Below, piece by piece: positions 4,677 to 62,325 of a stretch of 64,000 nucleotides of DNA. The notes beneath the pieces are model-generated. The model had not been told where the DNA came from, did not search any database, and worked only from the letters and a program-made list of their open reading frames with translations. Every line of letters begins with the position of its first letter. Positions within the stretch are counted from its first letter, which is position 1. Source of the DNA: Polaromonas sp. AET17H-212 (lineage in GTDB: Bacteria; Pseudomonadota; Gammaproteobacteria; Burkholderiales; Burkholderiaceae_C); the NCBI RefSeq assembly GCF_002379085.1, contig NZ_NBZW01000001.1, positions 310,001 to 374,000 of the forward strand. Reading direction: 5' to 3'. Both the position numbers and the translations under genes were made by a program.

Positions 4677-4707
4677 TTGTTCATTCGTTTTCCGTAACGA
4701 TGAACAA
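4677..4707. promoter_or_regulatory. inverted repeat, candidate operator or hairpin upstream of ku
   Basis: Perfect 8-bp arms TTGTTCAT (4677-4684) and ATGAACAA (4700-4707) separated by 15 bp; the arms can be extended by CG pairing with one bulge. It is followed by an A-run on the plus strand. It could be a regulator site for ku or the CHRD gene, or a hairpin in the CHRD leader. The symmetry is seen directly; the role is inference. Confidence 0.35.
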
Positions 4708-4760
4708 AAAAGACCACCCGCTCAACAGGTACGCGCGCAGCTAGCTATTTATTTCATAGC
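4707..4760 (-). repeat. dispersed 17-bp-core element, copy 1 (intergenic)
   Basis: Core at 4744-4760, read on the minus strand as GCTATGAAATAAATAGC (5-bp arms GCTAT/ATAGC). It continues on that strand into a TAGCTGCGCG arm and a GGGTGG...TTTTTT end like the other copies. It lies in the ku/CHRD intergenic region. Confidence 0.6.
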
Positions 4761-4992
4761 AAATCAGGCACGCCGACCGACCGCAGGGGGCCTGCGCCGT
4801 CGTCCTACGGCAGCAACGGACGGCTGCCGACAGCACCCTGCCGCCGCCCCGGATTAAGGTCACACACGGGGTTACCTACGTACTGGAGCGTTCAAACATG
4901 GCAAACAGGCATCAACACCTTCTGGGCCAGCCAGGCGGAGGCAGGGCTGGCAATTTGCAGACAACAGCCCGCAGCCACCGGAGGCGATAGGC

Positions 4993-5910
4993 ATGGCCTC
5001 GCGCGCCTTGTGGAAAGGAGCCATCAGTTTTGGGCTGGTGCACATCCCGGTGTCGTTGCATTCAGCGACCACCGACAGCGGGGTCGACTTCGACTGGCTG
5101 GACAAACGCAGCATGGACCCGGTGGGGTACAAACGCATCAACAAGAAGACCGGCAAGGAAATCACGAAGGAAAACATCGTCCGGGGCGTGCAGTACGAGG
5201 ACGGCCAGTACGTGGTGCTGAGCGACGAAGAAATCGCGGCGGCCTTTCCCCGGACCACCCAGACGATAGAGATCGAGAGTTTTGTCGCCAACACCGACAT
5301 TCCTTTTGTCTACCTCGAACGCCCTTACTACATTGCGCCCATCAACCAGGGCAAAAAGGTCTACGCGCTGCTGCGCGACACCCTGCTCAAGACCGGACGG
5401 GTCGGCATTGCCCGCGTGGTGATACAGACCAAGCAGCACCTGGCCGTGCTGGTGCCGTCCGGCCCCGGGCTGATTTTGGACCTGCTGCGCTGGGGCACCG
5501 AGATCCGCAACTGGGACGACCTGGACCTGCCGCCCGAAGGCGCCAAGGCGGCCGGCCTGTCCGAGAAGGAGTTGTCCATGGCCCGACAACTGGTCAACGA
5601 CATGACCGACACCTGGAAGCCGGAGCAGTTCAAGGATTCGTTCACGGATGCCATCATGGCCCTGGTTCAGCAGAAGGTGAAGCAAGGCAAGGTCGAAACC
5701 GTCGAGCAGCCGGAAGTGCCTGATGAATCCTCCGGCGGTGCGGGCGCAAAAATCATCGACCTGACCGAGCTGCTGCAGCGCAGCCTGCGCCACCAGGGTG
5801 GCACGGCCGGCAAGACCGCGCCCAAAACGCCGGCCAAAGCCGCAAGCACCACGCCGGCCCGCAAGCCGGCCGCCAAAACCGGCGCCGCGAGCCGGCGCCG
5901 CGCCGCCTGA
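4993..5910 (+). CDS. ku: Ku protein, non-homologous end joining
   Basis: 305 residues. Bacterial Ku binds broken double-strand DNA ends as a ring homodimer and recruits LigD. The N-terminus MASRALWKGAISFGLVHIPV is the signature of the family, and the core (about 1-260) is the DNA-encircling Ku domain. The C-terminal 45 residues form a Lys/Ala/Pro-rich tail (KTAPKTPAKAA...), which in bacterial Ku proteins modulates DNA binding and threading. The ATG is preceded by GGAGG at 8-9 bp. ligD follows after 22 bp, so the two form an NHEJ operon. Regulation may involve the inverted repeat at 4677-4707; this is inference. Confidence 0.97.
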   Translation: MASRALWKGAISFGLVHIPVSLHSATTDSGVDFDWLDKRSMDPVGYKRINKKTGKEITKENIVRGVQYEDGQYVVLSDEEIAAAFPRTTQTIEIESFVANTDIPFVYLERPYYIAPINQGKKVYALLRDTLLKTGRVGIARVVIQTKQHLAVLVPSGPGLILDLLRWGTEIRNWDDLDLPPEGAKAAGLSEKELSMARQLVNDMTDTWKPEQFKDSFTDAIMALVQQKVKQGKVETVEQPEVPDESSGGAGAKIIDLTELLQRSLRHQGGTAGKTAPKTPAKAASTTPARKPAAKTGAASRRRAA

Positions 5911-5932
5911 ACAAAGCCGGCCACACCCACCC

Positions 5933-8599
5933 ATGGCAGCCGACGACCCGCTCCAGGCCTACCGCGCCAAGCGCGACTTCCAACACACGCCGGAGCCGGC
6001 CGCCGGGGGCAAGCGCTCCCAGGCGCGCAGCTTCGTTATCCAGAAACATGACGCCAGCCACCTGCATTACGACTTCCGGCTTGAGCTCGAAGGCACGCTG
6101 AAAAGCTGGGCCGTCCCCAAAGGGCCCAGCCTGGACCCCGGCGTCAAACGCATGGCGGTGCAGGTGGAAGACCATCCGATCTCCTACGCCAGCTTCGAAG
6201 GCACCATTCCCGCCAACCAGTACGGCGCTGGCAATGTCATCGTCTGGGACCGCGGCACCTGGCTGCCAGTTGGCGACCCGGTGGCGGGACTGCAGAATGG
6301 CAAACTGAAGTTCGAGTTGCAGGGCGAAAAACTCAAAGGCCACTGGTCGCTGGTGCGCATGCATGGCAAAGGCGGGGAGCGCCAGCCGCCCTGGCTGCTG
6401 ATCAAGGACAGGGATGACGCGGCCCGGCCCGCCGCCGACTACGACGTGCTGCAGGCCCTGCCCGACAGCGTGATCACCGGCGTGCCCTTGACACCCCGCA
6501 AAACCACCGCGGCCAAAAAGGCGCCAGCCAAAGCCGCGTCCACCAGCAACGCCGCCGCGGGCAAAAAACCCGCCGCCACACGCCGCCAGCCACCGGGTGC
6601 CCTCAAGGACGACCTGCCGCAAACGCTCGCCCCTGAACTGGCGACGCTGGTCACGCACATGCCGGCCGACAGCCAGGACTGGGAGTACGAGATCAAGTTC
6701 GACGGTTACCGCCTGCTGACACGCGTGGAGGGCACGTCGATCCGCTGCCTCACGCGCAACGGCCACGACTGGAGCGACAGGCTGCCGGTGCTGGTGCAAG
6801 CCTTGTCGCGGCTGGGCCTGCGCTCCGGCTGGCTGGACGGTGAAATCGTGGTGCATGACAGCAAGGGCCTGCCTGACTTCGGCGCGCTGCAAAACGCTTT
6901 CGACAGTGGCAGCACCGCGCAGATCGTCTATTACGTGTTCGACCTGCCGTTTTATGACGGCTACGACCTGCGCCCGCTGCCGCTGGTGGAGCGGCGCAAC
7001 CTGCTGCGGGCGCTGGTGCAGGCGGCGCCGCCGGGCCCGGTCCGTTTCAGCGAAACCCTGGAGGCCGGCACGCAGGACCTGCTGGCTGCCGCACGCCGCC
7101 TGGGGCTGGAGGGCGTGATCGGCAAACGTGTGTCGTCACCCTATGTGTCGCGCCGCTCGCCGAGCTGGATCAAGCTCAAGACGCAGCTGCGCCAGGAGTT
7201 TGTGATTGGCGGCTACACCGAGCCCAAGGGCTCCCGTGCCGGCCTGGGCGCCTTGCTGCTGGGGGTGTATGACGACCGGGGCGCCCTGCGTTATGCAGGC
7301 AACGTGGGCACCGGGTTTGACGACAACACCTTGCAACAGCTGCAGGGCAAGCTGGCCGCGCTGGCAACACCCCGCCCTGCTTTTGCCGGCCTGCCCGCCT
7401 CGGTCAAGGGCCACTGGGTTAAACCGGTGCTGCTGGCCGAGGTCAGTTTTGCACAATGGACCCACACCGGGCGTATCCGCCACGCCGTGTTCCGGGGCCT
7501 GCGCACTGACAAGGACGCGCGCAAGGTCACCCGCGAATCGGCGCAGCCCATCGAGGACCTCATGCCAGCGACCAAAAAATCCGCAGCCTCGCCGCGCACC
7601 CCGGCCGCCGACAAACGCGGCACCCGCCGCCCTGCCCCGGACAGCGGCACGCTGCGCGTCACGCATCCCGAACGCGTGGTGGACCCGGACACCGGCCTGA
7701 CCAAACTCGACCTGGTGCATTACTACGCGCTGGTGGCACCGCTGATGCTGCCGCATCTGCGCGCCAGGCCGGTGGCGCTGGTACGGGCGCCGGACGGTGT
7801 CCAGGGTGAGCTGTTTTTCCAGAAACACGCCGAGGCGACGGCCATCCCCGGCCTCAAGCTGCTGGACCCGGCGCTGGACCCCGGCCATGCGCCCTTGCTG
7901 GAAATCACCACGGCGGAGGTGCTACTGGCCGCCACCCAGCTCAATGTCATGGAGTTCCACACCTGGAACGCCACGACCCGGTCCATCGCCAAACCCGACC
8001 GCATGACCTTTGACCTGGACCCGGGTGAAGGCGTGTCGTGGGCGCAGATCCTGGAAGCCGCCCAACTGGTCCAGGCGCTGCTGAAGGAACTTGGCCTGCC
8101 GGCGTTTCTCAAGACCAGTGGCGGCAAGGGCCTGCATGTGGTGGTGCCACTGAAACCGGCCTTCGGCTGGGACACGGTGAAGGATTTCTCGCAGGCCATC
8201 GTGCAGCATTTGTCCGCCGTGATCCCCGACCGCTTCGTGGCCAAAAGCGGGCCGCGCAACCGGGTTGGAAAAATTTTCCCCGACTACCTGCGCAACGGTT
8301 TTGGTGCCACGACGGTCTGTGCCTGGTCCCTGCGGGCCCGGCCCGGGCTGGGCGTGTCGGTGCCGGTCAGTTGGGACGAGCTGAACGGCCTGAGCGGTCC
8401 GGCGCACTGGACGGTGGCCAACATCGCCGATCGCATCGCCATCGGCAACTCGCCCTGGGATGGCTACGAGCAGGCCCGCTGCACCCTCCCCGCCGCCATG
8501 AAAGCGCTCGGCTTCAAGGCGGAACAACCTGTCGCAGCAGCGAAGCCGTCCCGGCCCCGGTCAACGGCCAAGGCCGGCAAGATCAAGGCCGCGGTGTAG
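5933..8599 (+). CDS. ligD: multifunctional ATP-dependent DNA ligase LigD
   Basis: 888 residues, the Ku-partner end-processing and joining enzyme. Domain order is that of Pseudomonas LigD. The 3'-phosphoesterase is at about 15-175 (HDASHLHYDFRLELEG, with catalytic His/Asp). The ATP-dependent ligase is at about 225-540, with the adenylated lysine in KFDG at 255-258, LDGEIVV near 301-307 and the SWIKLK motif. The primase-polymerase domain is at about 580-870 (MTFDLDPGEG with the metal-binding acid pair, and KTSGGKGLHVVVPL). Two Lys/Ala-rich linkers (about 185-220 and 555-580) separate the domains. The start at 5933 gives the normal N-terminus; the longer open frame overlaps ku. The gene ends in TAG, which is part of a TGTAGGAC octamer. 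Confidence 0.97.
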   Translation: MAADDPLQAYRAKRDFQHTPEPAAGGKRSQARSFVIQKHDASHLHYDFRLELEGTLKSWAVPKGPSLDPGVKRMAVQVEDHPISYASFEGTIPANQYGAGNVIVWDRGTWLPVGDPVAGLQNGKLKFELQGEKLKGHWSLVRMHGKGGERQPPWLLIKDRDDAARPAADYDVLQALPDSVITGVPLTPRKTTAAKKAPAKAASTSNAAAGKKPAATRRQPPGALKDDLPQTLAPELATLVTHMPADSQDWEYEIKFDGYRLLTRVEGTSIRCLTRNGHDWSDRLPVLVQALSRLGLRSGWLDGEIVVHDSKGLPDFGALQNAFDSGSTAQIVYYVFDLPFYDGYDLRPLPLVERRNLLRALVQAAPPGPVRFSETLEAGTQDLLAAARRLGLEGVIGKRVSSPYVSRRSPSWIKLKTQLRQEFVIGGYTEPKGSRAGLGALLLGVYDDRGALRYAGNVGTGFDDNTLQQLQGKLAALATPRPAFAGLPASVKGHWVKPVLLAEVSFAQWTHTGRIRHAVFRGLRTDKDARKVTRESAQPIEDLMPATKKSAASPRTPAADKRGTRRPAPDSGTLRVTHPERVVDPDTGLTKLDLVHYYALVAPLMLPHLRARPVALVRAPDGVQGELFFQKHAEATAIPGLKLLDPALDPGHAPLLEITTAEVLLAATQLNVMEFHTWNATTRSIAKPDRMTFDLDPGEGVSWAQILEAAQLVQALLKELGLPAFLKTSGGKGLHVVVPLKPAFGWDTVKDFSQAIVQHLSAVIPDRFVAKSGPRNRVGKIFPDYLRNGFGATTVCAWSLRARPGLGVSVPVSWDELNGLSGPAHWTVANIADRIAIGNSPWDGYEQARCTLPAAMKALGFKAEQPVAAAKPSRPRSTAKAGKIKAAV

Positions 8600-8768
8600 G
8601 ACCGCCTTGACAGATTCACGCGCGCCTTCCTGACAGACGCTCGGGTGGCCGCCGGCTTCGCGCGAGGCCAGTACCGGCGTATCTTCATGCCAGGTACCAG
8701 CGGCTTGCAGCCGTGCGCCCTGCACGGCCGGGAGTTGGGACACTTGATGATTCTTTCGGGAACACGCC

Positions 8769-8927
8769 ATGAAGCATTTTTTGACGGCACTGCCGGTATT
8801 TTTTGCACTGACCCTGCTCACCGGTTGCCCGCAGTCGAAGGTGCCCGACAAACCTTTGTTGGTACCCGAGCCGAAAGCGGCCCTCAACATCCTGAACAAC
8901 CACCAGAGCTACTCCTTTGAAATCTGA
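8769..8927 (+). CDS. small lipoprotein of unknown function (52 aa)
   Basis: A short open frame that a length cut-off would miss. It begins MKHFLTALPVFFALTLLTGC: two basic residues near the start, a hydrophobic run and a perfect lipobox LTGC with the lipidated cysteine at residue 20. The mature peptide is only 32 residues (PQSKVPDKPLLVPEP...SYSFEI). Its stop overlaps the start of the next lipoprotein gene by 11 bp in another frame, implying translational coupling. The lipobox and the overlap argue that it is real; no family is recognised. Membrane anchoring of a short peptide is reminiscent of entericidin-like or scaffold lipoproteins, but I cannot assign a role. Confidence 0.6.
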   Translation: MKHFLTALPVFFALTLLTGCPQSKVPDKPLLVPEPKAALNILNNHQSYSFEI

Positions 8928-9261
8928 ATCTTCCTTTGATCCCTGGCGCCGGCCTGCAGCCGGTCTGGCCCTGGCCTGCCTGGCCGCCTTGTTGTCCGCA
9001 TGTGTGACGCCGGCGTCCCAGCTGGAGTCGCCGCCGCAAACCGTGCTGCTCGACGGCGACGCCTACCGGGTCGAGCAGATCACGGCCGGCACCTGGTCAG
9101 CGCAGGCGCCGCGCCACCTGCCGGACGGTCCACAGAAAACGGCCAGCTTGGTCCGGGCCATTGAAAAGGCATCGAACTGCAAGGTGACCGACAGCAGCTA
9201 CGGTGCCCAGGGCGCCGCATTCAACGCCCAGGTGGACTGCGCCAGCAGGCTGAAGAACTAG
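8917..9261 (+). CDS. putative lipoprotein of unknown function
   Basis: 114 residues beginning with TTG. The N-terminal 29 residues form a lipoprotein signal (RRPAAGLALACLAALLSAC) with the lipobox LSAC. The mature part contains LLDGDAYRVEQITAGTWSA and a C-terminal half with two cysteines (SNCKVTDSSYG...AQVDCASR) spaced for a disulfide. The pattern 'DGxxYRVxQITAGTWSA' looks like a small conserved Burkholderiales family without known function. Start choice rests on the overlap with the upstream 52-aa lipoprotein gene (8917-8927); no ATG precedes the signal peptide. Confidence 0.65.
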   Translation: MKSESSFDPWRRPAAGLALACLAALLSACVTPASQLESPPQTVLLDGDAYRVEQITAGTWSAQAPRHLPDGPQKTASLVRAIEKASNCKVTDSSYGAQGAAFNAQVDCASRLKN

Positions 9262-9263
9262 AC

Positions 9264-9317
9264 AAATCACGCTCCGGCCCTGATGCCGCCTACGTAAACA
9301 GCTATTGAATCAATAGC
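9264..9317 (-). repeat. dispersed 17-bp-core element, copy 2 (intergenic)
   Basis: Core at 9301-9317 is a near-perfect hairpin GCTATTG-aat-CAATAGC. On the minus strand it is followed by TGTTTACG, a short spacer and GGGCCGGAGCGTGATTT, closely matching the copy at 34043. It starts just after the stop codon of the upstream lipoprotein gene. Confidence 0.7.
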
Positions 9318-9440
9318 AACCCAGGCCGCACACATAGTTTTACACCTTCGCATCCGCAGCAGACGCAACTTTACGCGTCGTGCCGTATGACCTTGCAAGC
9401 TCCCCGCCACACTCGCATCAACAACACCAAGGAGATCTTC

Positions 9441-9869: not shown

Positions 9870-9894
9870 GCTCTGACCCGGCTGTCACAGGCAT

Positions 9895-9925
9895 GAAAAA
9901 AGCTGGCACAAGTGCCAGCTTTTTT
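9895..9925. terminator. bidirectional intrinsic terminator
   Basis: A perfect stem AGCTGGCAC (9901-9909) / GTGCCAGCT (9912-9920), preceded by an A-run (9895-9900) and followed by a T-run (9920-9925). It sits between two convergent genes and can stop transcription from both strands. Confidence 0.9.
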
Positions 9926-11867: not shown

Positions 11868-11898
11868 GGATCTCTCCTTGCGCAACCCGAACATCATG

Positions 11899-11952
11899 AA
11901 AAATGGCTGTAGCCCTTTATTCACGGTAGCAGGCAGCTATTCAATTCATAGC
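11899..11952 (-). repeat. dispersed 17-bp-core element, copy 3 (over a stop codon)
   Basis: Core at 11936-11952, minus strand GCTATGAATTGAATAGC, followed by TGCCTGCTACC and AGGGCTACAGCCATTTTT. The core supplies the last codons and the TGA stop of the upstream methyltransferase gene. Confidence 0.7.
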
Positions 11953-26053: not shown

Positions 26054-26971
26054 GTGAAGCTCAACCTGGCCCTGCTGGCCGCGGCCGCCACCGGCGTGCA
26101 GGTCGGTGCCGCCATCGTGGCCTCGCGGTTTGTCGTGGCCGAGGTGCCGCCGCTGACCCTGGCCCTGCTGCGCTACGCGATTGGTTTTGCCTGCCTGCTG
26201 CCCTTCTTCTTGAAGTCTTTCATGGCTCCAGCCCTTGAGGGACAAGCGCGAGCAGCTCTTAAAAATATAGCAACCGCTGACTGGCTGGCCATGGCCGCGC
26301 TCGGCACCGGCCAGTTCGCGGTGTTGATCGCGCTGCTCAATTTCGGCCTGCAGCACATCGGTGCCGGCCAGGCGGCACTGATCTTCAGCCTGTTCCCGCT
26401 GCTGACCCTGCTGCTGTCCAGCGCGCTCGGGCGCGAACGCATTTCGGCCGCGCTGCTGGCCGGTGTGCTGCTGTCCATCACCGGCGTGGCGCTGTCGCTG
26501 TGGCCCAAACTCCAGGCACCGCACCCGGGCCACTGGTGGGGTGAGGCGGCGGTGCTGGCCAGTGCCGGCGTCGGCGCGCTGTGCAGCGTGTTGTACCGCC
26601 CTTACCTGCAGCGCTACCCGACGCTGGCGGTGTCCAGTTTTGCGATGCTGGTGTCGGTGCTGTTTCTCGGCCTGCTGGCCCTGGCCGAGAACTGGCCGGC
26701 GCGGGTCATGGCGCTCGGCCTGCAGAGCTGGACCGTGGTCGCACTGATCGGCATCTCCAGCGGCATCGGCTACTTCTGGTGGCTCTACGCCCTCAAGCAC
26801 GAATCGCCGACGCGGGTCACCGTGTTTCTCGCGCTCAATCCACTGACGGCAGCCCTGCTCGGTGTGCTTTTTCTCGGCGAAGCCCTTTCCCCATGGTCGG
26901 CAGCAGCTATCTTTTTAATAGCATCCGGTTTGTGGCTGGCAACCCGCGGCGCGGCGCCGGCCCGGCGATAA
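26054..26971 (+). CDS. EamA/DMT-family transporter
   Basis: 305 residues with ten predicted membrane helices in two EamA repeats (about 1-135 and 160-300), typical of the drug/metabolite transporter superfamily (RhaT/YdcZ-like). A GTG start at 26054 is used; no ATG is available between the preceding stop and the first helix. Substrate is unknown; such exporters handle amino acids, nucleosides or toxic metabolites. Two copies of the dispersed 17-bp-core element lie in frame. One encodes AALKNIAT in the second-to-third-helix loop (about 68-75) and the other AAAIFLIASG in the last helix (about 283-292). This is unusual and suggests the element contributed protein sequence. Confidence 0.88.
   Translation: MKLNLALLAAAATGVQVGAAIVASRFVVAEVPPLTLALLRYAIGFACLLPFFLKSFMAPALEGQARAALKNIATADWLAMAALGTGQFAVLIALLNFGLQHIGAGQAALIFSLFPLLTLLLSSALGRERISAALLAGVLLSITGVALSLWPKLQAPHPGHWWGEAAVLASAGVGALCSVLYRPYLQRYPTLAVSSFAMLVSVLFLGLLALAENWPARVMALGLQSWTVVALIGISSGIGYFWWLYALKHESPTRVTVFLALNPLTAALLGVLFLGEALSPWSAAAIFLIASGLWLATRGAAPARR
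26218..26271 (-). repeat. dispersed 17-bp-core element, copy 4 (inside EamA gene)
   Basis: Core at 26255-26271, minus strand GCTATATTTTTAAGAGC, followed by TGCTCGCGC and AAGGGCTGGAGCC, an excellent match to the shared arm. It is read in frame by the EamA gene on the opposite strand. Confidence 0.75.
26869..26922 (-). repeat. dispersed 17-bp-core element, copy 5 (inside EamA gene)
   Basis: Core at 26906-26922, minus strand GCTATTAAAAAGATAGC, followed by TGCTGCCG and AAAGGGCT. On the plus strand it encodes AAIFLIAS in the last membrane helix of the EamA protein. Confidence 0.65.
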
Positions 26972-27563: not shown

Positions 27564-28132
27564 GCCTGAACCTGCAATGGACCGACTGGCTCGGCATGTT
27601 TGTGCATTTCCTGTCACTGTCGCTGCTGTCGATAGGCGGCGCCATCACCACCGCGCCCGACATGCACCGCTACCTGGTGGACCGGCAGCACTGGCTGACC
27701 GATCCGCAGTTCAACGCTTCGGTGGCGATTGCGCAGGCCGCGCCCGGCCCCAACGTGCTGTTTGTCGCGCTGATGGGCTGGCAGGTGGGCCTGAACGCGG
27801 GCGGCCCGCTGCTGGGCCTGTTCGGCGTGCTGGTCACCATGCTGGGCATCATGCTGCCCAGCACCACGCTGACCTACCTGGCCGCCAGCTGGGGCCACCG
27901 CAACCGCAACCTGCGCTGGGTGCGCGCCTTCAAGCAGGGCATGGCGCCCATCGTGATTGCGCTGCTGATCGCCACCGGCTGGATCCTCGCCAGCGCCAAC
28001 GTCGCCAGCCTGAGAGACTGGCCGGTGGCGCTGCTGACCGTGGTGACGGCGCTGATTGTCTGGCGCACCCGCATGCATTTGCTGTGGCTGCTGGGGGCGG
28101 GCGCGCTGCTGGGCTGGTTCGGCTGGATCTGA
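27560..28132 (+). CDS. chromate transporter, C-terminal-type half
   Basis: 190 residues, the second CHR domain of a split chromate transporter. It shows FLSLSLLSIGGAITTAPDMH, the PGPN motif in IAQAAPGPNVLFVALMGW, and five to six membrane helices. The ATG at 27560 overlaps the stop of the first half (ATGA), so the two are translated together and presumably assemble in opposite orientations in the inner membrane. The longer open frame upstream in this phase is antisense-like noise over the first gene. Confidence 0.9.
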   Translation: MSLNLQWTDWLGMFVHFLSLSLLSIGGAITTAPDMHRYLVDRQHWLTDPQFNASVAIAQAAPGPNVLFVALMGWQVGLNAGGPLLGLFGVLVTMLGIMLPSTTLTYLAASWGHRNRNLRWVRAFKQGMAPIVIALLIATGWILASANVASLRDWPVALLTVVTALIVWRTRMHLLWLLGAGALLGWFGWI

Positions 28133-28135
28133 ATG

Positions 28136-28189
28136 AAAACGGGCTTTTTCCTATAAGGAACGGGCGCCAGCAGCTATCAAAAAAAGAGC
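28136..28189 (-). repeat. dispersed 17-bp-core element, copy 6 (intergenic)
   Basis: Core at 28173-28189, minus strand GCTCTTTTTTTGATAGC, followed by TGCTGGCGCCCG. It also forms a larger hairpin GGCGCCA/TGGCGCC (28163-28199) between the convergent chrA-like and rlmB genes, where it may act as a terminator. Confidence 0.7.
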
Positions 28190-29024: not shown

Positions 29025-29354
29025 ATGCCCAAAATAATAACAAAATGTTTTTGCTTCAGCGACGCGCAGCTTGAGCAGGCCCTGAGCCAGTTCATCGGCC
29101 CGCTGGTGAAAATGATCGTGAAGAAGGAAGTGGCCCGGCATACCGCGCGGGAGACGCTGCCGCAGTCCCTGGCGGCCGAAATCGACCGACCCGCCAACCG
29201 TGCCGGCGTTCTGGCGGCGATGCAAACACTCCAGCGCCAGGGTCTGCGCCCTGCCCCGATCGCTATTCTATTGATAGCTTCCTGCGCATATACATCGGGC
29301 GCTACAGGCCCATTTGACCCTAAGCCGCGACGACCTGTCCCGCCTCGATGGTGA
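29025..29354 (+). pseudogene. short ORF, possible C-terminal remnant interrupted by a repeat
   Basis: 109 codons. The first 65 residues look like real protein (FSDAQLEQALSQFIGPLVKMIVKKEVARHT...LAAEIDRPANRAGVLAAM). They resemble the C-terminal helical segment that follows the kinase or sensor domain in some proteobacterial Ser/Thr kinases and regulators ('LxxxxGPxAxxLVxRxA'). The rest is encoded by a dispersed 17-bp-core element (AILLIAS) and by the antisense of the next gene, so the natural end seems lost. The ATG has a GA-rich sequence only 3 bp before it. I read this as a remnant or a marginal small gene, not a certain CDS. Confidence 0.35.
29262..29315 (+). repeat. dispersed 17-bp-core element, copy 7
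   Basis: Core at 29262-29278, GCTATTCTATTGATAGC, followed by TTCCTGCGC and CGGGCGCTACAGGCCCATTT. It ends 5 bp before the stop codon of the minus-strand ABC ATPase gene. Confidence 0.65.
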
Positions 29355-31891: not shown

Positions 31892-31945
31892 GCTCTCAAA
31901 AAGAGAGCTATTTGCGATGGTAGATCAAGGGCTGGAGCCCGATTT
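31892..31945 (+). repeat. dispersed 17-bp-core element, copy 8 (intergenic)
   Basis: Core at 31892-31908, GCTCTCAAAAAGAGAGC, a perfect 6-bp hairpin with loop AAAAA, followed by TATTTGCG, AAGGGCTGGAGCC and CGATTT. This is one of the cleanest copies and defines the consensus. Confidence 0.8.
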
Positions 31946-31974
31946 GATTCAGATGACCGAAGGTCTCCGGCACC

Positions 31975-33511: not shown

Positions 33512-34036
33512 CTATATCTTCCACTTTTCCATCAGTTGCGCGGGTCGCAACGCATCGTAGCCCTCGAAGGGCTGGTGAATCCACGGGTTGGTCGGCAGGA
33601 ACTCGACCGAGTAGTCCGGCTGGAAGGCGGACACGCCCTTGGTCCAGATCACCGCGCTGCGCAGCTCGCTGATCGGCTTGTAGTTGTTGCGCAGCTGGTG
33701 AATCACGGCGTTGAGGGTGTGGCCGGTGTCGGCCAGGTCGTCGACCAGCAGCACCTTGCCGGCGATCTCGCCCTTGGGTGTGGTGATGAAACGCGCGATG
33801 TCGAGGTTGCCCTGCACTGTGCCGGAGTCGGCGCGGTAGGAGCTGGTGGACATGATGGCCAGCGGCTTGTCGAAAATGCGCGAGAGGATGTCGCCGGGCC
33901 GCATGCCACCGCGCGCCAGGCACAGGATGGTGTCGAATTGCCAGTCGGACTGGTGGATCTTGATCGCCAGTTTTTCAATCAGGTTGTGGTACTCGTCATA
34001 ACTGACATAAAGGTGCTTGCCGTCTTCGGTCAACAT
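33512..34036 (-). CDS. phosphoribosyltransferase
   Basis: 174 residues, type I phosphoribosyltransferase. The PRPP-binding motif is KVLLVDDLADTGHTL (about 93-107). An early loop ILCLARGGMRPGDILS and a C-terminal hydrophobic tail WIHQPFEG follow the xanthine/guanine-hypoxanthine PRT pattern. It salvages a purine base to its nucleotide with PRPP. It lies 85 bp downstream of purA on the same strand, at the end of the long ndk-to-purA gene run, consistent with purine metabolism. Its Shine-Dalgarno AGGAG lies inside a dispersed 17-bp-core element. Confidence 0.9.
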   Translation of the reverse strand: MLTEDGKHLYVSYDEYHNLIEKLAIKIHQSDWQFDTILCLARGGMRPGDILSRIFDKPLAIMSTSSYRADSGTVQGNLDIARFITTPKGEIAGKVLLVDDLADTGHTLNAVIHQLRNNYKPISELRSAVIWTKGVSAFQPDYSVEFLPTNPWIHQPFEGYDALRPAQLMEKWKI

Positions 34037-34042: not shown

Positions 34043-34096
34043 GCTCCTGATTCAATAGCTGTTTGCGCCCGCCCCGACCGGGCTGGAGCACGATTT
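34043..34096 (+). repeat. dispersed 17-bp-core element, copy 12 (contains a Shine-Dalgarno site)
   Basis: Core at 34043-34059, GCTCCTGATTCAATAGC, followed by TGTTTGCGC, then CGGGCTGGAGCACGATTT. On the minus strand the core contains CAGGAGC, which is the ribosome-binding site of the phosphoribosyltransferase gene starting at 34036. Confidence 0.8.
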
Positions 34097-34121
34097 AACT
34101 GAAAACACTGCAGAAAAGCAA

Positions 34122-42421: not shown

Positions 42422-43576
42422 CTACTCGGGCGCGAAGCCGAAAACAGCACCTGAACGCGTCACCGCGATCAGGATATTGCCGGCCAGCACCGGGGAAGCC
42501 GCCACCGGCGAGCCGTCGGTCACGAGGCGGTTCAGCGAAGAACCGTCCGCACGGGACAACAGGTGCACAAAACCGGCCGAGTCGCCGATGGCGACGGAGC
42601 GGCCCACGACCAGCGGCGCGCTCAGGCTGCGGTAACGCAGGCTGTCCGAGCTCCAGGCGCTCTCGCCGTCGCTGCGGCGCCAGGCCAGCACCTTGCCGTC
42701 GGCTTCGGTGCCAAACACCAGGCTGTCGTCGCCATCGATGCCTTGCGCGCCATTGGCGGGCTTGGTCCACAGCAGGGCGCCGCGCTGGGCATCGACACAG
42801 CCGACGCTGGCCTGGAAAGCCCGGGCGCAGACCGTGTTACCGGTACGGCTCACGGTGCCGACCAGGTCCACCAGGCGCTCCACATCATTGATGCCGCGTG
42901 GCGAGGCAATCGGGGCCTCCCAGCGGATGCTGCCATTAAGCGGATTGAGGCCGGTCAGGCGGCCGGCCAAACCCACCACCAGCGTGTCGCCGACGGCGAG
43001 CATGACACCCGACTGGCGCAGCACCAGAGGCTCGCTGGGGCGCTGCTGGGACCAGAGCTTGCGCCCGGTCTGACCGTCAAAGGCATTGACCGACCGGTCG
43101 GCCGCGAGCACAAACACCCGGCCACCGGCCACAAACGGTGCGGTGAAGGCCTGGGCCGCCAGTTTCTGGCGCCAGATTTCCTTGCCGCCCGACAGGGCCA
43201 CGACTTCGTTGGCCCGCGTGACCACAGCGGCGACCTTGCCGTCACTGCCGACGCCGGCCGCGATCGGTGCGCCGATGCTGGTGCGCCAGAAGTCGCGGCC
43301 ACTGCGCGCGTCCAGCGCCACCACGGTGCCATCGCTGCTTGCGGCCACCACGGTGTCGCCCGAGACGTTCACCTGAAGCGGGAAAGAAATCTCGCCGATA
43401 CGGGCGGTCCAGACCTGTTTGGCCGGTACCAGCGCCACCACCGGCTGCAATTCGGCCGGCTGCGGCTTTTTGACGGAGCTGCTGAACATCGAACACCCCG
43501 CCAGGGATGCTATCAAAAAGATAGCTGCAGGCGCTTTTAACGTGTGGGCCAGAGGCCGAAAAGACTTGAAAATCAC
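42422..43576 (-). CDS. bamB: outer membrane protein assembly factor BamB
   Basis: 384 residues. Lipoprotein (lipobox LAGC, cysteine at residue 28) and eight-bladed PQQ-type beta-propeller with repeated 'VVALDARSGRDFW / VNAFDGQTGRKLW / LTGLNPLNGSIRW' blades. BamB is the scaffold of the BAM complex that inserts outer-membrane beta-barrels. Its ATG overlaps the yfgM stop (ATGA). Remarkably, codons 5-23, nearly the entire signal peptide including AAIFLIAS, coincide with a dispersed 17-bp-core element on the opposite strand. Confidence 0.95.
   Translation of the reverse strand: MIFKSFRPLAHTLKAPAAIFLIASLAGCSMFSSSVKKPQPAELQPVVALVPAKQVWTARIGEISFPLQVNVSGDTVVAASSDGTVVALDARSGRDFWRTSIGAPIAAGVGSDGKVAAVVTRANEVVALSGGKEIWRQKLAAQAFTAPFVAGGRVFVLAADRSVNAFDGQTGRKLWSQQRPSEPLVLRQSGVMLAVGDTLVVGLAGRLTGLNPLNGSIRWEAPIASPRGINDVERLVDLVGTVSRTGNTVCARAFQASVGCVDAQRGALLWTKPANGAQGIDGDDSLVFGTEADGKVLAWRRSDGESAWSSDSLRYRSLSAPLVVGRSVAIGDSAGFVHLLSRADGSSLNRLVTDGSPVAASPVLAGNILIAVTRSGAVFGFAPE
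43509..43562 (+). repeat. dispersed 17-bp-core element, copy 9 (inside bamB signal peptide)
   Basis: Core at 43509-43525, GCTATCAAAAAGATAGC, a 6-bp hairpin, followed by TGCAGGCGC and GTGGGCCAGAGGCC. It lies antisense within the signal-peptide coding part of bamB. Confidence 0.75.
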
Positions 43577-50456: not shown

Positions 50457-52157
50457 TCAGCGATTTCCGCCGCGGTTGCCGCCCCCGCTGCGATTTCCGC
50501 CGCGGTTTCCACCGCCACCGCCACCGCCACCTCCGCCGCTGCGCCGTGGGCCCGAAGCACCGCCGCCGCCCGTACCGCTCCCCGCACGACGTTGGCCCTG
50601 GCCCGGCGCCTGCCGCTGGCGGGTAAAGGTTTCCGCACCGATATAACCAAACGAGGTCTTCATCGGGTCGGGCTGCGCTCCGCCAGGGCCCTTGTCACCG
50701 CGGTTGTCACGGTCGCCGCCCCGGTCGTCGCGGCGTTTCGGGCCCTGCCCGCCGGTGTTGCCGCCAAACTTGCCAGGCGGGCCGGAGCGGGGACCGGCGC
50801 CGGGGTTGCCCCCGTTGCCGCGCCCGCCCTTGGCGCCACGGCGACGGTTGGCGTCGCGTGGCGCTTCGTTGCGATTCAGGGGTGGCTGAAGGTCCAGCGG
50901 ATCATGGCCGGCCTCATCGCCATGATCGCCTTGCTCGGTCGTCCGGCTTTTTTCCGGCATGACCTGCGCATCCGGTGCCCGGTTGGCGCCGTTGTCGGGC
51001 CGTCCCCGTCCGCCGCGTGGGCGGTCGTTGCGGCGCGGCCCGCGCCCTGGCCGGCCCTCGCCGGAGCCGGCTTCCCCGCCCGCCCCGGCTTCCCCGGTGC
51101 TCCTGTTGGCGCCACGCGGATCGGCACGGGCCTCTGAGCGTCCGACAGCGTTGGTCAGCGCATCGATATCGCGTTCGTCGAGTTCGACAAAGGCGCCGCG
51201 CTTGAGACCGCGCGGCAGCACCACCGCACCGTAACGGATGCGGATCAGGCGGCTGACAGCGTGACCCACGGCTTCGAACATGCGGCGCACCTCGCGGTTG
51301 CGACCTTCTGAAATCGTCACGCGGTACCAACAGTTGGCGCCCTCGCCGCCGCCGGCTTCAATCGTGCTGAACTGGGCCAGGCCGTCGTCGAGCTGCACGC
51401 CGTCGAGCAAGCGCTTTTTCTCCTCGTTGTTCAGCGCGCCCAGCACACGCACCGCGTACTCTCGCTCCAGACCAAAACGGGGATGCATGAGTTTGTTGGC
51501 GAGTTCACCGGAACTGGTCAGCAGCAAAAGTCCCTCGGTGTTCAGGTCGAGCCGGCCCACCGATTGCCACTTGCCCTGGAACAGCTTGGGCAGACGGCGA
51601 AACACCGTCGGCCGGTTTTGCGGATCGTCATGCGATACCACCTCACCGGCAGGCTTGTGGTAGGCGATGACCCGCGGCGGCGGCGGGTCGATGCGCACGC
51701 GGATCGGCTTGCCGTTGACCTTGACGGTGTCGCCAAACTGGATGCGCTGGCCAATGTGAGCCGGTTCACCATTGACGGAAATCCGGCCTTCCAAAATCAG
51801 CTGCTCCATTTCCAGCCGGGAACCAAGTCCCGCCTGCGCCAGCACCTTGTGCAGTTTGGGCGTTTCCGGCTGGGGCAGCAGCACGCGCTTGGGAAGCTCA
51901 AGCGCCACGTCTTCTTCTTCATCGGCATCGAACTGGCCGGTCACCACGTCTTCAAAACGGGCCAGCGCCGGCGTCACCGGCGCCGCGCGCTCGGGCCTGC
52001 CCGGCACCACATTGGCCGCATCGCCAGCAGGCGGCACCCCGATTGCTATCAAATCAGGAGCTGGCTGCGCAGCTGAATCGGGGGCTGGCGGCACAATGGG
52101 CTCATCAACCTGGGAGGTGGGAGCGGTGGCCGGAGGCGGATTGTCTTTTTGATTCAT
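50457..52157 (-). CDS. rluB: 23S rRNA pseudouridine synthase RluB with long disordered tail
   Basis: 566 residues; the enzyme makes pseudouridine 2605 in 23S rRNA. After about 80 variable residues an S4 RNA-binding domain (about 85-145: [20 protein letters not shown]) precedes the RsuA-type catalytic domain (about 155-325) with the active Asp in [14 protein letters not shown]. The last 240 residues are Arg/Gly/Asp-rich and presumably disordered, ending in [11 protein letters not shown], with one conserved-looking island [17 protein letters not shown] near residue 500. A dispersed element encodes APDLIAI in the N-terminal extension (residues 33-39). scpB lies 10 bp upstream. Confidence 0.95.
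52045..52098 (+). repeat. dispersed 17-bp-core element, copy 10 (inside rluB)
   Basis: Core at 52045-52061, GCTATCAAATCAGGAGC, followed by TGGCTGCGC and CGGGGGCTGGCGG. It is read antisense in frame by rluB as APDLIAI. Confidence 0.7.
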
Positions 52158-57064: not shown

Positions 57065-57081
57065 CGAGTCCACATGACTCG
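57065..57081. promoter_or_regulatory. inverted repeat upstream of the PP2C gene
   Basis: CGAGTC-cacat-GACTCG, 6-bp perfect arms, in the 85-bp divergent gap between the DUF465 and phosphatase genes, 12 bp before the phosphatase ATG. Possible operator or leader hairpin. Confidence 0.4.
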
Positions 57082-57092
57082 GCCATTTCAAT

Positions 57093-57851: not shown

Positions 57852-57853
57852 CC

Positions 57854-58498
57854 TCAGCCAGGGGCGGGCAAGGGCTTGGCCGCCGGTTTCGTCTGCTCGC
57901 GCAGCCTCTGCTCGCGGGTGGCTTTTCTCTCCTGCGCTTCCTGCTGCTTGTCCTTGTAAATCTGGGCCTCTTTGGCACTGGCGGCCTGCTTGTCTGCACG
58001 CGCCTGGGCCCTCTGCTTCGCGCCTTGGTCCTTACCGGCCGCCGCGGCCGCATTGGATGCTTCGTTCTGCTGCAAATCGCTGCGGTCGCTGGCCTTCTGG
58101 CGCGTCCGCTCTTCGCGGGCTTTGGTGGCTTCCAGCGCCGTCGCGCGGCGCTCGGCCGCCTGCCGCTCAGCCTCGGGTGACGATTTTTCCTCGATCTTGC
58201 GAACCTGCTCGGCCGCCTTTTGCCGGCGCTCCTGCTCATTGAGGGCAACTTCCCGTAACTTCAGGTCGGCCATCGCCTCGCGCCGTCTGGGTTTGATGGC
58301 ATTGAGGCAGCTGTTGACAAAAAACTTCTTGTAACAGGCGTCTTCTTCCGCAGCAAACGCCGCCTCCAGGCTGGCGCGCTCGGCGCTGATGCGCTGCCGT
58401 TCGCGTTCGGCGGCGGCCGACACCAACTCATCCTGGGTCTGAGCGCTTGACGCGAAACCCAGGGTGGACAGCAGCAGGAAAAGAAACAGTTTTTTCAT
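57854..58498 (-). CDS. exported coiled-coil protein of unknown function
   Basis: 214 residues. Signal peptide MKKLFLFLLLSTLGFASSAQ, then an almost continuous charged helix rich in Glu, Arg, Ala, Gln (AAAERERQRISAERASLEAA, EQVRKIEEKSSPEAERQAAE). It carries an early DACYKKFFVNSCLNAIKPRRREAM segment whose two cysteines may form a disulfide hairpin. The 'CYxxFxVNxCxxxxRxRRR' segment is a recurring motif in Burkholderiales periplasmic proteins of unknown role. The ATG overlaps the zapE stop by 4 bp. Confidence 0.8.
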   Translation of the reverse strand: MKKLFLFLLLSTLGFASSAQTQDELVSAAAERERQRISAERASLEAAFAAEEDACYKKFFVNSCLNAIKPRRREAMADLKLREVALNEQERRQKAAEQVRKIEEKSSPEAERQAAERRATALEATKAREERTRQKASDRSDLQQNEASNAAAAAGKDQGAKQRAQARADKQAASAKEAQIYKDKQQEAQERKATREQRLREQTKPAAKPLPAPG

Positions 58499-59592
58499 GT
58501 CAGGGTGGTATCCACATTTCTGCGCTCCAGCGCCAAAAACTCGGCAGACTGCATTTCATTGAGCCTGGAAACCGTCCGGGGAAACTCGTGTGCCAGGGGA
58601 CCTTCGGTATATAACGCCTCCGGGGGGACTTCGGCCGACATGATGAGTTTGACACGCCGGTCGTACAACACATCAACCAGCCAGGTAAAGCGCCGCGCCT
58701 CGGATGCCATGCGCACAGGCATGTGCGGCACATTGCTGAGAAGCACCGTGTGAAACTGGGTGGCGATTTCCAGGTAGTCATTTTGCGAACGCGGTCCGCC
58801 GCACAGGGTCTTGAAATCGAACCAGACGACGCCGCCCGCCTTGCGCCTGGCATAGATTTTTCGCGACTCGATGTGCAGCACCGGCGATTCGTCATGGGAC
58901 TCCGCCAGCCGCTGAAAAGTTTCCTCCATCTCCGCGTCGGCCTGCGGCCCCAGCGGCGTGTGGTAGAGCCTGACCTGCTCGAGCGTGCGCCGGCGGTAGT
59001 CGGTCCCGTTGTCCACGCTGATGACTTCAAGGTTCTGCTTGAGCAGCGCTATCGCCGGAAAAATGCGGTCCCGGTGCAGGCCGTTCGGGTAGAGGTCGTC
59101 GGGATGGAAATTGGAGGTGGTGACAAAACCCACGCCATTGTCAAACAGCGCCGCCAGCAGGCGGTGCAGAATCATCGCATCGGTGATGTCGGCGACGTGA
59201 AACTCGTCAAAGCAGATGAGGCGGTAACGTTTGGCAATACGTTTACCCAGCTCGTCGAGCGGGTTGACCGTGCCCTGGAGATCGCGCAGTTCCCGGTGAA
59301 CTTCACGCATGAATTCGTGAAAATGCAGGCGCGTCTTGCGCTTGAGCGGAACCGCGTTGTAAAAGCAGTCCATCAGGAAGCTTTTGCCGCGCCCCACCCC
59401 GCCGTACATGTAAACCCCGCGCGGGATGTCGGGCCGGTTGATCAGCTTCTTGAGCGGATTGGAACGCTTCTCCTTGAACGCCGCCCATTCGGTGGCACAA
59501 CGCTCCAGCGCGTCCACCGCCCGCAACTGGGCGGGGTCACTGGTGTAACCCCGCGTCTTCAGTTCAGACTCGTAATCCGAACGCACCGACAT
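58495..59592 (-). CDS. zapE: cell division ATPase ZapE (AFG1-like)
   Basis: 365 residues. AAA-type ATPase with Walker A GGVGRGKS (64-71), Walker B RLICFDEFHV and the arginine-containing ATSNFHP-like VTTSNFHPDDLYPNGLHRDRFP region (here TTSNFHPDDLYPNGL). ZapE binds FtsZ and modulates the Z-ring late in division or under low oxygen; mitochondrial AFG1 is its homologue. Start at 59592 (MSVRSDYESEL). It follows lpd by 23 bp; the odhA-odhB-lpd-zapE order is common in Betaproteobacteria. Confidence 0.94.
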   Translation of the reverse strand: MSVRSDYESELKTRGYTSDPAQLRAVDALERCATEWAAFKEKRSNPLKKLINRPDIPRGVYMYGGVGRGKSFLMDCFYNAVPLKRKTRLHFHEFMREVHRELRDLQGTVNPLDELGKRIAKRYRLICFDEFHVADITDAMILHRLLAALFDNGVGFVTTSNFHPDDLYPNGLHRDRIFPAIALLKQNLEVISVDNGTDYRRRTLEQVRLYHTPLGPQADAEMEETFQRLAESHDESPVLHIESRKIYARRKAGGVVWFDFKTLCGGPRSQNDYLEIATQFHTVLLSNVPHMPVRMASEARRFTWLVDVLYDRRVKLIMSAEVPPEALYTEGPLAHEFPRTVSRLNEMQSAEFLALERRNVDTTLT

Positions 59593-59615
59593 CGTCAAGG
59601 CTTCGGTGCCGGGAA

Positions 59616-61043
59616 TCAGAAATTCAGCGTCCGCTTGTCGACGGCCAGCGCCGCCTCCTTGGTGGCCTCGCTGAGCGACGGATGGGCATGGCAGATTCTC
59701 GCAATGTCTTCTGCGCTGGCACGGAATTCCATGGCCACAACACATTCGGCGATCAGTTCGCTGGCGAAGGGGCCGACGATGTGCACGCCGAGAATTTCGT
59801 CGGTGGCGGCGTCCGCCAGCATTTTCACCATGCCGGTGGTATCGCCCAGGGCGCGCGCGCGGCCGTTGGCCATGAAGGGGAAGGTGCCGGCCTTGTAGGC
59901 CCGGCCCGCCGCCTTGAGCTGCTCTTCAGTCTGGCCGACCCAGGCAATCTCGGGGTTGGTGTAGATGACCCAGGGAATGGTGTTGAAGTTGACATGGCCG
60001 TGCTGGCCGGCAATGCGCTCGGCCACCGCCACACCCTCTTCTTCCGCCTTGTGCGCCAGCATGGGGCCGCGCACCACATCACCGACGGCCCAGACGTTGG
60101 GCAAGTTGGTTTTGCATTCTTCGTCGACCACGATGGCGCCACGCTCGTCCAGCGCCAGGCCCACGGTTTCCGGCGTCAGGCCGATGGTGTTGGCGGTCCG
60201 GCCGATCGAGACAATCAGCTTGTCGACATCGAGCGTCTGGGCCTCGCCCTTGGCATTGGTCCAGGCGACGGATACGCCTTTTTTGCCGGACTTGATCTCG
60301 CCAACCTTGACGCCGAGCTCGATTTTCAGACCCTGCTTGACAAAGGCCTTGTGCGCTTCCTTGGCGATCTGCTGATCAACAGCCCCCAGGAAGGTGGGCA
60401 GGCCTTCCAGGATGGTCACCTCGGCACCGAGGCGCCGCCAGACCGAGCCCATTTCCAGGCCGATCACGCCGGAGCCGATCAGGCCCAGCTTTTTGGGCAC
60501 GGCACCGATACGCAGGGCGCCATCGTTGGACAGGATATTTTCTTCATCAAAAGGCGCGCCGGGCAAGGCGCGTGCATTCGAACCCGTGGCCACGATGACA
60601 TGTTTGCCGGAGAGGGTTTCCTCGGCGGCTCCCGCCACCTTGATGTCATAAAGACCGTCCTTCGCCGCGACGAAAGAGCCTCGGCCATGGAAGAAGGTGA
60701 CCTTGTTCTTCTTGAACAGGTAGACGATGCCGTCGTTGTTCTGCTTGACGACCGTGTCCTTGCGCGCCAGCATCTTCGCAACGTCCAGGCCCAGGCCCTG
60801 GACCTCGATGCCATGGTCGGCAAAGTGGTGGCTGGCGTGGTCGAAATGTTCCGACGATTGCAGCAAGGCCTTGGACGGAATGCAGCCGATGTTGGTGCAG
60901 GTACCGCCCAGGGCCGGCCCGCCCTTGGCGTTTTTCCACTCGTCGATGCAGGCGACGTTGAAGCCCAGCTGGGCAGCGCGGATGGCGGCAATGTAGCCAC
61001 CGGGACCGCCACCAATGACGATCACGTCGAATTGTTTGGACAT
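59616..61043 (-). CDS. lpdA: dihydrolipoyl dehydrogenase (E3)
   Basis: 475 residues. FAD-dependent enzyme that reoxidises the dihydrolipoyl groups of 2-oxoglutarate dehydrogenase. The FAD-binding [10 protein letters not shown] is at 11-20 and the redox disulfide Cys49/Cys54 in [15 protein letters not shown]. The NAD-binding motif is [15 protein letters not shown] and the catalytic His/Glu pair is in [13 protein letters not shown]. The start at 61043 follows odhB by 10 bp. A second in-frame ATG at 61064 lies inside odhB. Confidence 0.97.
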
Positions 61044-61053
61044 GTACGGCTCC

Positions 61054-62325
61054 TTAGATGTCAAACAACAAACGTGCCGGGTCTTCCAGCGCTTCCTTCA
61101 TCGCCACCAGGCCGAGCACGGCTTCGCGGCCGTCGATGATGCGGTGGTCGTAGCTCATGGCGAGGTAGTTCATCGGGCGGATCACGATCTGACCGTTCTC
61201 TACAACGGCGCGGTCCTTGGTGGCATGCACGCCCAGGATGGCCGACTGGGGCGGGTTGATGATCGGGGTCGACAACATGGAGCCGAAGGTTCCACCGTTG
61301 GAAATCGAGAAGGTGCCGCCGGTCATGTCTTCAATGCCCAGCTTGCCGTCCTGTGCTTTTTTCCCGAACTCGGCAATCTTCTTTTCGATGTCGGCAAAAC
61401 TCATCTGGTCGGCATTGCGCAGAATGGGCACCACCAGGCCGCGCGGCGAACCGACGGCGATGCCGATGTCGAAGTAGCCGTGGTAGACGATGTCATTGCC
61501 GTCGACCGACGCATTGATCACCGGAAATTTCTTCAGTGCATGCACGGCGGCTTTCACAAAGAAACTCATGAAGCCGATCTTCACGCCGTGCTCCTTGGTG
61601 AACTGGTCCTGGAACTTCTTGCGCATTTCCATCACCGGCGCCATGTTGACTTCATTGAAGGTGGTCAGGATGGCGTTGGTCGACTGCGATTGCAGCAGGC
61701 GCTCGGCAATACGGGCACGCAGGCGGCTCATGGGCACGCGCTGCTCGGGACGGTCGCCCAGGTCGCGGGCCCTGGTCGGCGCCGCCACTTGAGGCAAGGA
61801 AGTGGTTGGAGCGCCCGTAGGTATTGCGCTGGCAGCTACTGATTTAGGAGCAGATGGGGCACCGCCGGCCACCGCGACTAGCACGTCGCCCTTGGTGACC
61901 CGGCCATCCTTGCCGGTTCCGGGAACCGAGCCGGAAGCCAACTGGTTGTCGGCCATCAGCTTGGCGGCGGCAGGCATCGGCACACCGGCCATGCTGCCAC
62001 CGGAAGCCGCAGGCGCAGCAGCGGGGGCGGAGGCAGTGGCCACAGCCACCGCTGCTGCGGCAGGTGCAGCAGCAGAGGCCTTGCCTTCGGTATCGATTCT
62101 GGCAATCAGCTGTTCGGCCGTGACCGTGCCACCGTCGGCGACCAGGATCTCGGCCAGGACACCGGCGGCAGGCGCGGGCACTTCCAGCACCACCTTGTCG
62201 GTTTCGATCTCGATCAGGATTTCGTCGATGGCGATGGCGTCGCCGACTTTTTTCTTCCACTGCAGCATGGTGGCTTCCGCCACGGATTCGGACAACTGCG
62301 GGACCTTGACTTCTACGATAGCCAT
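61054..62325 (-). CDS. odhB: dihydrolipoyllysine succinyltransferase (E2o)
   Basis: 423 residues. The lipoyl domain (1-77) has Lys44 in ETDKVVLEV as the lipoylation site. An Ala-rich linker is followed by the E1/E3-binding domain (about 108-145: [20 protein letters not shown]), a second linker, and the catalytic core (about 190-423) with [14 protein letters not shown] near the end. It transfers the succinyl group to CoA in the TCA cycle. The second linker ([11 protein letters not shown], around residue 160) coincides with a degenerate dispersed element. It lies 54 bp downstream of odhA. Confidence 0.97.
61798..61851 (-). repeat. dispersed 17-bp-core element, copy 11 (inside odhB linker)
   Basis: Core at 61835-61851, minus strand GCTCCTAAATCAGTAGC, followed by TGCCAGCGC and CGGGCGCTCC. 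The core is more degenerate than in most copies. It encodes APKSVAA in the interdomain linker of OdhB. Confidence 0.55.

Follow-up and report, generated by a model that had tools for sequence, protein, structure and literature searches.

A 64-bp dispersed element kept in place across Polaromonas-like and Acidovorax-like genera points to a DNA-level recognition signal

What holds a short repeat to the same places in bacteria of different genera, even inside genes? The window analysed here, a 64,000-nucleotide stretch of Polaromonas sp. AET17H-212 (NCBI RefSeq assembly GCF_002379085.1, contig NZ_NBZW01000001.1, positions 310,001 to 374,000), carries twelve copies of a dispersed element built on a 17-bp dyad. 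A preliminary description had likened the family to mobile repeats such as repetitive extragenic palindromic (REP) elements or miniature inverted-repeat transposable elements (MITEs). Our comparisons showed hundreds of 64-base marks kept in place across Polaromonas-like and Acidovorax-like genera, even within genes, and this pattern points to a DNA-level recognition signal over a jumping repeat. Judged from these comparisons, each copy is very probably a recognition site read in double-stranded DNA.

All twelve proposed sites were confirmed, each with the 17-bp dyad core GCT-N11-AGC. The unit consisted of this core and a 47-bp arm and aligned nearly without gaps; the shared arm of the preliminary description stood, but its total length of about 54 bp had to be extended to about 64 bp, with the arm running to a ATTTGAYTNAAAA-like end. 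The consensus of the copies in the window's own genome, from core to arm end, was approximately GCTATTAAATCAATAGC TGCTTGCGCCCGTNCCTCAAGGGCTGGAGGCCGATTTGACTCAAAA. The core read GCT M Y Y R W W W Y R R K AGC, a degenerate dyad whose W centre resembles an A-tract, and the arm held further blocks (GCG, GGGCT and TTT), each at a fixed distance. Copies had been thought to vary most in the core loop at a kept length; the length is indeed constant, but the loop is not free, because its centre was nearly all A/T in the profile of the own genome.

To characterize the spacing, we counted half-sites at different spacer lengths. Of the spacer lengths 0 to 15, only k = 7 gave any GCTAT-Nk-ATAGC in the window, with six occurrences, while Markov-shuffled window sequences yielded only 0.00-0.03. 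A relaxed form of the core occurred 11 times in the window at k = 7 against 0.8 expected, and 0-1 times at other lengths. The window held 13 matches to GCT[AC][CT]-N7-[AG][GT]AGC, one of which (41394) lacked the arm and is probably a chance match. Over 854 kb of the own genome, GCT[AC][CT]-Nk-[AG][GT]AGC had 108 matches at k = 7, and each of the spacer lengths 3-6 and 8-11 gave 1-5. The excess at k = 7, far above the other spacer lengths, bears out the earlier claim of a constant core length with selection on core and spacing.

The own genome contained 175 exact GCTAT-N7-ATAGC cores and a single match to the reversed pattern. The profile search that had been suggested as a check found 122 copies at E<0.001 in the 854 kb and none in one shuffled copy. 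Density was taken from the contiguous stretches C1 and C2 only, because loci L050-L055 had been picked where cores were known; these stretches held 98 copies in 734 kb, or about 600 per genome by extrapolation, and the expectation of hundreds of dispersed copies was borne out.

The seeds of the profile had been picked by the core pattern, and for this reason we ran an arm-only search with the core masked as a control. It returned 77 copies and none in shuffled DNA; the six core bases were exact in 68 of the 77 and one base off in the other 9. We then compared orthologous copies, after removing 7 pairs with an arm identity below 20/47. Core bases differed in 0 of 138 cells among 23 close pairs (left flank, 81/690) and in 2 of 192 cells among 32 distant pairs (left flank, 536/960). 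The other cells of the distant pairs changed more often in the arm loop at 34-41 (156/256) than in the A/T centre (14/96), GCG (14/96) or TTT (16/96). Broken sites are under-counted and these rates lean towards intact cores, because the ortholog-search profile includes the core and the 7 poor-arm pairs were dropped; the same profile also favours A/T in the centre. The arm-only search independently supports the invariance of the core.

Is the dyad read as RNA or as DNA? All 14 changes in the W centre of the distant pairs were A-T swaps, which made up only 37 of 617 flank changes. TpA steps were avoided in the centre (14 against 33.5 expected) and ApT steps less so (62 against 82.8). Compensatory change across the dyad was absent: positions 8-18, 9-17 and 10-16 were independent (z 0.1-0.2), positions 11-15 and 12-14 were dependent yet paired less often than expected, and the pairing excess was slight at most in every register (at best 0.21, summed over 10 pairs). 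Neighbouring bases gave the strongest covariation (AA/GG/TT at 40-41 and TTT/AAA at 56-58), with a few weaker long-range dependencies. Covariation and step avoidance together look like protein-read DNA shape, unlike a conserved hairpin.

An element acting in RNA, as a terminator, a hairpin or a 3' end stabiliser, would suit the frequent position of copies directly after stop codons and their orientation in tandem intergenic gaps, where 26 of 33 copies run against transcription (hand count). We consider it very improbable given the missing compensatory change and slight pairing excess, the tolerance of A-T swaps in the centre, the occurrence of intragenic copies in both directions (22 on the same strand, 14 on the opposite) and the lack of any Rfam match in the window. 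An RNA hairpin was rejected on the missing compensatory change, and an intrinsic terminator, defined by a stem with conserved pairing and a U tract, was rejected on the unconserved pairing.

To determine whether the copies move, we compared their places between genomes. The copies in the window are listed below, with the relatives (our genome and locus handles) to which each is common.

Copy 1: 4697..4760, minus strand; core 4744-4760, arm 4697-4743; intergenic.
Copy 2: 9254..9317, minus strand; core 9301-9317; intergenic; common to G302.
Copy 3: 11889..11952, minus strand; core 11936-11952; overlaps the 3' end of a predicted gene; common to G302; weak pairing in G200 (arm 21/47).
Copy 4: 26208..26271, minus strand; core 26255-26271; within a coding sequence whose predicted product is a membrane protein (by eye, EamA-like); common to G302 and G200.
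Copy 5: 26859..26922, minus strand; core 26906-26922; within the same EamA-like gene as copy 4; common to G302; unmatched in G200 and G099.
Copy 6: 28126..28189, minus strand; core 28173-28189; common to G302; a G099 pairing was discarded for its poor arm.
Copy 7: 29262..29325, plus strand; core 29262-29278; common to G302, G200, G099, G071 and G255.
Copy 8: 31892..31955, plus strand; core 31892-31908; common to G302, G200 and G099, and weakly to L113.
Copy 9: 34043..34106, plus strand; core 34043-34059; lies 6 bp ahead of the start codon of gene 33512-34036, which runs on the minus strand and was named by eye as hypoxanthine phosphoribosyltransferase (hpt).
Copy 10: 43509..43572, plus strand; core 43509-43525; by eye encodes part of the signal peptide of the BamB lipoprotein (VIFKSFRPLAHTLKAPAAIFLIASLAGCS).
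Copy 11: 52045..52108, plus strand; core 52045-52061; common to G302, L101, G200, G255, G071 and L110.
Copy 12: 61788..61851, minus strand; core 61835-61851; in gene 61054-62325 (minus strand), where it falls in the Ala/Pro-rich linker of the predicted product, by eye a dihydrolipoamide acyltransferase; common to G302, G200 and G099.

In the approximately 95% identical relative G302, all 19 own sites with alignable flanks were filled in both genomes, and 7 own sites had no comparable flanks. The presence/absence differences between relatives that mobility had been expected to leave were thus missing at all 19 alignable sites. Sites were also common to less close congeners and to other genera. 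Copy 9, before hpt, was common to ten relatives (L101, G200, G099, G274, G071, G255, L109, L110, L113 and L119) and decayed in L102 and L103; copy 10, at the bamB start, was common to L101, G200, G099, G071, G255, L109, L110, L113 and L119 and had a broken core in L102. For copy 10, our simple gene finder set the bamB start further in than the by-eye reading. From 26 to 62 kb the window has 9 sites; 7 of them were paired with a site in G200 and 5 with one in G099, where a further partner was among the dropped pairs (hand count). Many sites are shown by these alignments to be held at orthologous places across genera, and the constraint lies on the site itself.

Two of these copies also overlap features of the neighbouring genes. 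The half GCTCC of copy 9 reads AGGAGC on the minus strand and is a likely ribosome-binding site 6 bp before the ATG of the hpt-like gene. In two proteins, hydrophobic residues of the signal peptide are encoded by the core: AAIFLIA in BamB (43509-43525) and ATFFIA in another protein (own C2:52381-52444).

We further checked the genome for a REP-associated tyrosine transposase (RAYT), as the preliminary description had advised. One RAYT-like Y1_Tnp gene was present (L056 1462-2160, G000:C86), but it was not flanked by the motif: no copy lay in its 3.3-kb locus, and the nearest relaxed core was 4 kb off in a 12-kb stretch. The neighbourhoods of 20 Y1_Tnp genes showed no enrichment, with 3 cores within 700 bp against 3.4 expected. 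Y1_Tnp was somewhat commoner in motif-rich than in motif-poor genomes (76/84 against 146/215, hand counts), an excess that we read as kinship, and it was absent in 8 of the 84 rich genomes (hand count), two of which (G040 and G163) are only 74% and 70% complete. RAYT as the driver was rejected on linkage, despite this mild excess.

The mobility proposed at first, in which the copies would be REP/MITE-like elements and by now mostly immobile relics, was not supported and is improbable. The common 64-bp unit with its fixed internal spacing, the 11-21 extra residues that coincide with some coding copies, the single RAYT-like gene and the Y1_Tnp excess would all suit it. It is opposed by the positions common across genera, the 19 filled sites, the coding sites without insertion in LigA, UreF and AddA, and the absence of Y1_Tnp from some rich genomes together with its lack of linkage to the motif; moreover, an intact core beside diverging arms is the opposite of what neutral relics would show. 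Plasmid records compared with the consensus at E 1e-3 gave one match only and phage records gave none, in a test that would miss most diverged copies. The sole plasmid match (NC_008757.1 186070-186131, 77% identity) lies under an ATPase gene on a Polaromonas naphthalenivorans plasmid.

Did the copies on coding sequence arise by point change or by insertion? Seven coding sites were compared with solved relatives. The copies in DNA ligase (LigA) and UreF were gap-free over the element, those in an ABC transporter and TruB differed by few residues (the two sites were off by +3/-1 and +4), and PurL, thymidylate kinase and DapE had +11, +20 and +21 residues at the motif sites. The LigA and UreF copies scored near the bottom of the family (24.7 and 23.0 bits); their arm identities were 19 and 25 of 46, against 11.9 (standard deviation 3.0) for random stretches. 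Insertion may explain part of the family, because 3 of the 7 coding sites coincide with extra length, and sites may have come about in both ways, by point change and by insertion.

At the AddA site the core falls in a conserved segment, where it codes for LLQKEEL-like residues. Of 26 genomes, 16 carried the relaxed core here, namely the own genome plus 15 of the other 25, and several sequences without it aligned gap-free. The Leu codon at the site was CTA in 17 of the 26 genomes, 14 of them with loci of at least 66% GC, and CTA makes up 0.6% of Leu codons in the predicted genes of the own genome. The rare codon is kept at AddA, and therefore a DNA-level force acts on the coding sequence.

The same region is dense in copies: five lay in and near addA/addB within 5.5 kb (own C1 417889-423440, L034), where the average is one per about 7 kb. 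DNA ligase, AddA, AddB and DnaX hosted 5 of the 36 coding sites (names by eye except ligase), and 31 cores lay in the 152 kb of addA loci from 25 genomes, a density of 0.204 per kb where other stretches had 0.097-0.120. A bias towards genome-maintenance genes is known for uptake sequences. For the motif such a bias is only suggestive, because addA was picked after seeing the cluster and many of the sites are orthologous. AddAB as a Chi-like reader of the sites was rejected: AddA was found in 25 of 30 motif-rich genomes and matched only weakly in five (G274, G009, G120, G121 and G141), and therefore AddAB cannot be needed.

To find out which bacteria carry the motif, we counted exact cores in 299 genomes of the GTDB family. 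The number was bimodal, with 20 to 317 cores in 84 genomes and 0-7 in most others (hand count), and 195 sampled genomes from other families of the order had 0-10, much like the reversed control. Out of 49 genomes sought by name, 48 were searched. Paracidovorax valerianellae had 255 exact cores and Simplicispira metamorpha 127; four Acidovorax had 10 to 179, eight Polaromonas 3 to 228, eight Rhodoferax 4 to 145, four Variovorax 22-29, four Limnohabitans 0-1 and three Hydrogenophaga 1 each.

In some close relatives the sites had decayed or vanished. G310, a close relative of the window's genome, had 38 exact cores in 2.7 Mb; 203 kb of it kept 13 relaxed cores and only 3 arm-only matches, one with a broken core. 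Polaromonas CF318 had 22 exact cores in 5.0 Mb and no family match in the 192 kb examined. In both genomes the cores at the bamB and hpt places were broken or gone. In genus g72 two species were motif-rich, and a third had just one core and lacked the element at its hpt and bamB loci. The motif was lost in the lineages G310, G311 and G177. In one decaying copy (L102, bamB locus) the two halves had changed alike, GCT to GCC and AGC to GGC, by chance or by a shifted specificity.

The arm also differed by genus, with equal length and different letters. The own genome had GCGCCCG...AAGGGCTGG, A. facilis had GCGCTTG...AAGCGCTGG with similar forms in several other genera, genus g32 had AGGCAATAAATACGCCGGCTAGAG, and G099 had GCCCA...TGGGC.

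Placement was scored on gene predictions from our own simple gene finder. Among the 98 copies on C1 and C2, 57 were intergenic and 36 lay inside predicted genes, where 86% of random positions fall. In the remaining 5 the core overlapped the end of the upstream gene, with the stop codon inside the core. Copy spacing on C1 was random (coefficient of variation 1.05), and no theme among the genes was seen by eye.

What, then, would maintain the sites? The favoured view is that neither a mobile element nor an RNA hairpin explains the copies. The best explanation overall, held tentatively at close to but below an even chance, is a DNA recognition site with biased inheritance of the marked DNA, similar to a DNA uptake sequence. 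A lineage-specific DNA-binding system would read the site, and cells would favour marked DNA in uptake or recombination, as is the case for DNA uptake sequences. Sites could then arise by point mutation and persist without a benefit of their own, because marked DNA would be preferentially inherited. Loss of the system would let the sites decay, and a shift in its specificity would move the sites of one genome together and give the arm its genus dialects. Given a shared reader of double-stranded DNA that evolves, the constancy of the core, the dialects and the losses would all follow. Biased inheritance would best account for sites in and between genes that are kept and follow the dialect without evident common function. 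Uptake or recombination as the specific drive is possible and falls somewhat short of even.

The main rival, to which we give a substantial minority chance, is the binding site of a chromosomal protein (nucleoid-associated, chromosome-organising or a global regulator), kept by host selection at each locus and lost when the protein is lost. The dyad core, the A-tract centre and the covariation mainly between neighbours suit readout of shape by a protein; the intergenic enrichment and the loss of the motif from whole lineages fit as well, and the orientation bias in tandem gaps is better accounted for. Such a protein sits less well with the random spacing on C1 and the lack of a gene theme, and each of some 600 sites would need a benefit large enough to pay for rare codons and dialect shifts. 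The unit also carries about 50 bits (hand estimate), far beyond the need for 600 sites.

Several observations weigh against biased inheritance through uptake as well. The information content just given is far above what marking 600 sites requires, and argues against a single uptake receptor. With 98 copies of a 64-bp unit in 734 kb (about 600 per genome, extrapolated), the family is less numerous and longer than known uptake sequences, which have thousands of copies of about 10-12 bp. No reading protein was found, and a single literature search on competence in these genera showed no study of it. ComEC was present in 287 of the 299 family genomes, rich or poor alike, and is uninformative as an uptake marker for that reason; G042, a motif-rich genome (41 copies, listed as 100% complete), gave no ComEC match. 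The bias of copies against transcription in tandem gaps is not predicted by an uptake signal. The weakness of the gap-free LigA and UreF copies, the extra residues in PurL, thymidylate kinase and DapE, and the Y1_Tnp excess in rich genomes count on the same side. The invariant core and the family-wide dialects are features shared with uptake sequences. Persistence at orthologous positions was seen too, while on origin by point change the observations point both ways: LigA, UreF and AddA have sites without insertion, but the first two are weak copies and three other coding sites show extra length.

Short dispersed repeats are usually classed as mobile relics; these sites act as one co-evolving recognition code, held across genera even at the cost of rare codons and missing from some close relatives. 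Sister species that differ in whether they have the code offer a natural experiment for finding the reader. If the uptake or recombination signal is true, such codes evolved in another large environmental group, in a longer form than those known. The family might then be a third, independent self-marking DNA language besides those of Neisseriaceae and Pasteurellaceae, a long composite signal that a receptor would read in double-stranded DNA, written mostly by point mutation in Burkholderiaceae, with dialects and repeated wholesale loss; we offer this as a speculative proposal with rather less than an even chance.

Among known systems, REP elements with RAYT transposases form hundreds of short dyad repeats, mostly extragenic. 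The motif resembles them in these respects and differs in having no hairpin covariation, no linked RAYT and positions common across genera. The Haemophilus uptake signal sequence has an invariant core and AT-tracts at a fixed distance, with copies in and between genes. The motif is like it in all of these features; the Haemophilus sequence is unrelated, belongs to a different bacterial group and occurs at higher density.

In a search of open-licence papers we found neither the whole element nor its conservation or dialects described. Pieces of it have probably been reported, judging by letters and spacing: in the accessible part of their paper, Tong, Schliekelman and Mrazek (2017, PMC5217627) gave the motif pairs ATAGCT(N)22CAAAAG (125 copies, Polaromonas naphthalenivorans CJ2) and GCTTAT(N)5AAGCG (114 copies, Acidovorax ebreus) as separate and of unexplained function, with Rhodoferax ferrireducens having the most motif pairs. 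ATAGCT is the end of the core, and GCTTAT-N5-AAGCG resembles the Acidovorax-type arm. Their pairs, like the copies here, are mostly intergenic, many between convergent genes. The N22 spacing of the P. naphthalenivorans pair is shorter than in the window's genome, and the core dyad, the conservation across genera and the dialects are not described in that part of the text. None of six Burkholderiales names looked for appeared in a paper on palindromic repeats (PMC3733652). The beta-proteobacterial repeat element (BRE) of Bordetella and Comamonadaceae (Hot et al., 2011, PMC3110155), of which Polaromonas sp. JS666 has 29 copies, is likewise dispersed with some copies inside genes; as described in the accessible part of that source, it is about 90 bp long, 69% GC in Bordetella and often tandem, and by this description it would differ from the motif.

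A close comparison is with the DNA uptake sequences of Neisseriaceae, which are about 10-12 bp long, have thousands of copies and an invariant core CTG, according to the accessible part of Frye et al. (2013, PMC3630211). The motif here has a 64-bp unit with a dyad core and about 600 copies. On that partial account both have a short invariant core (CT...AG in the motif, CTG in Neisseriaceae) and dialects by genus, both occur in permissive intergenic places as well as within genes, and both persist across a family.

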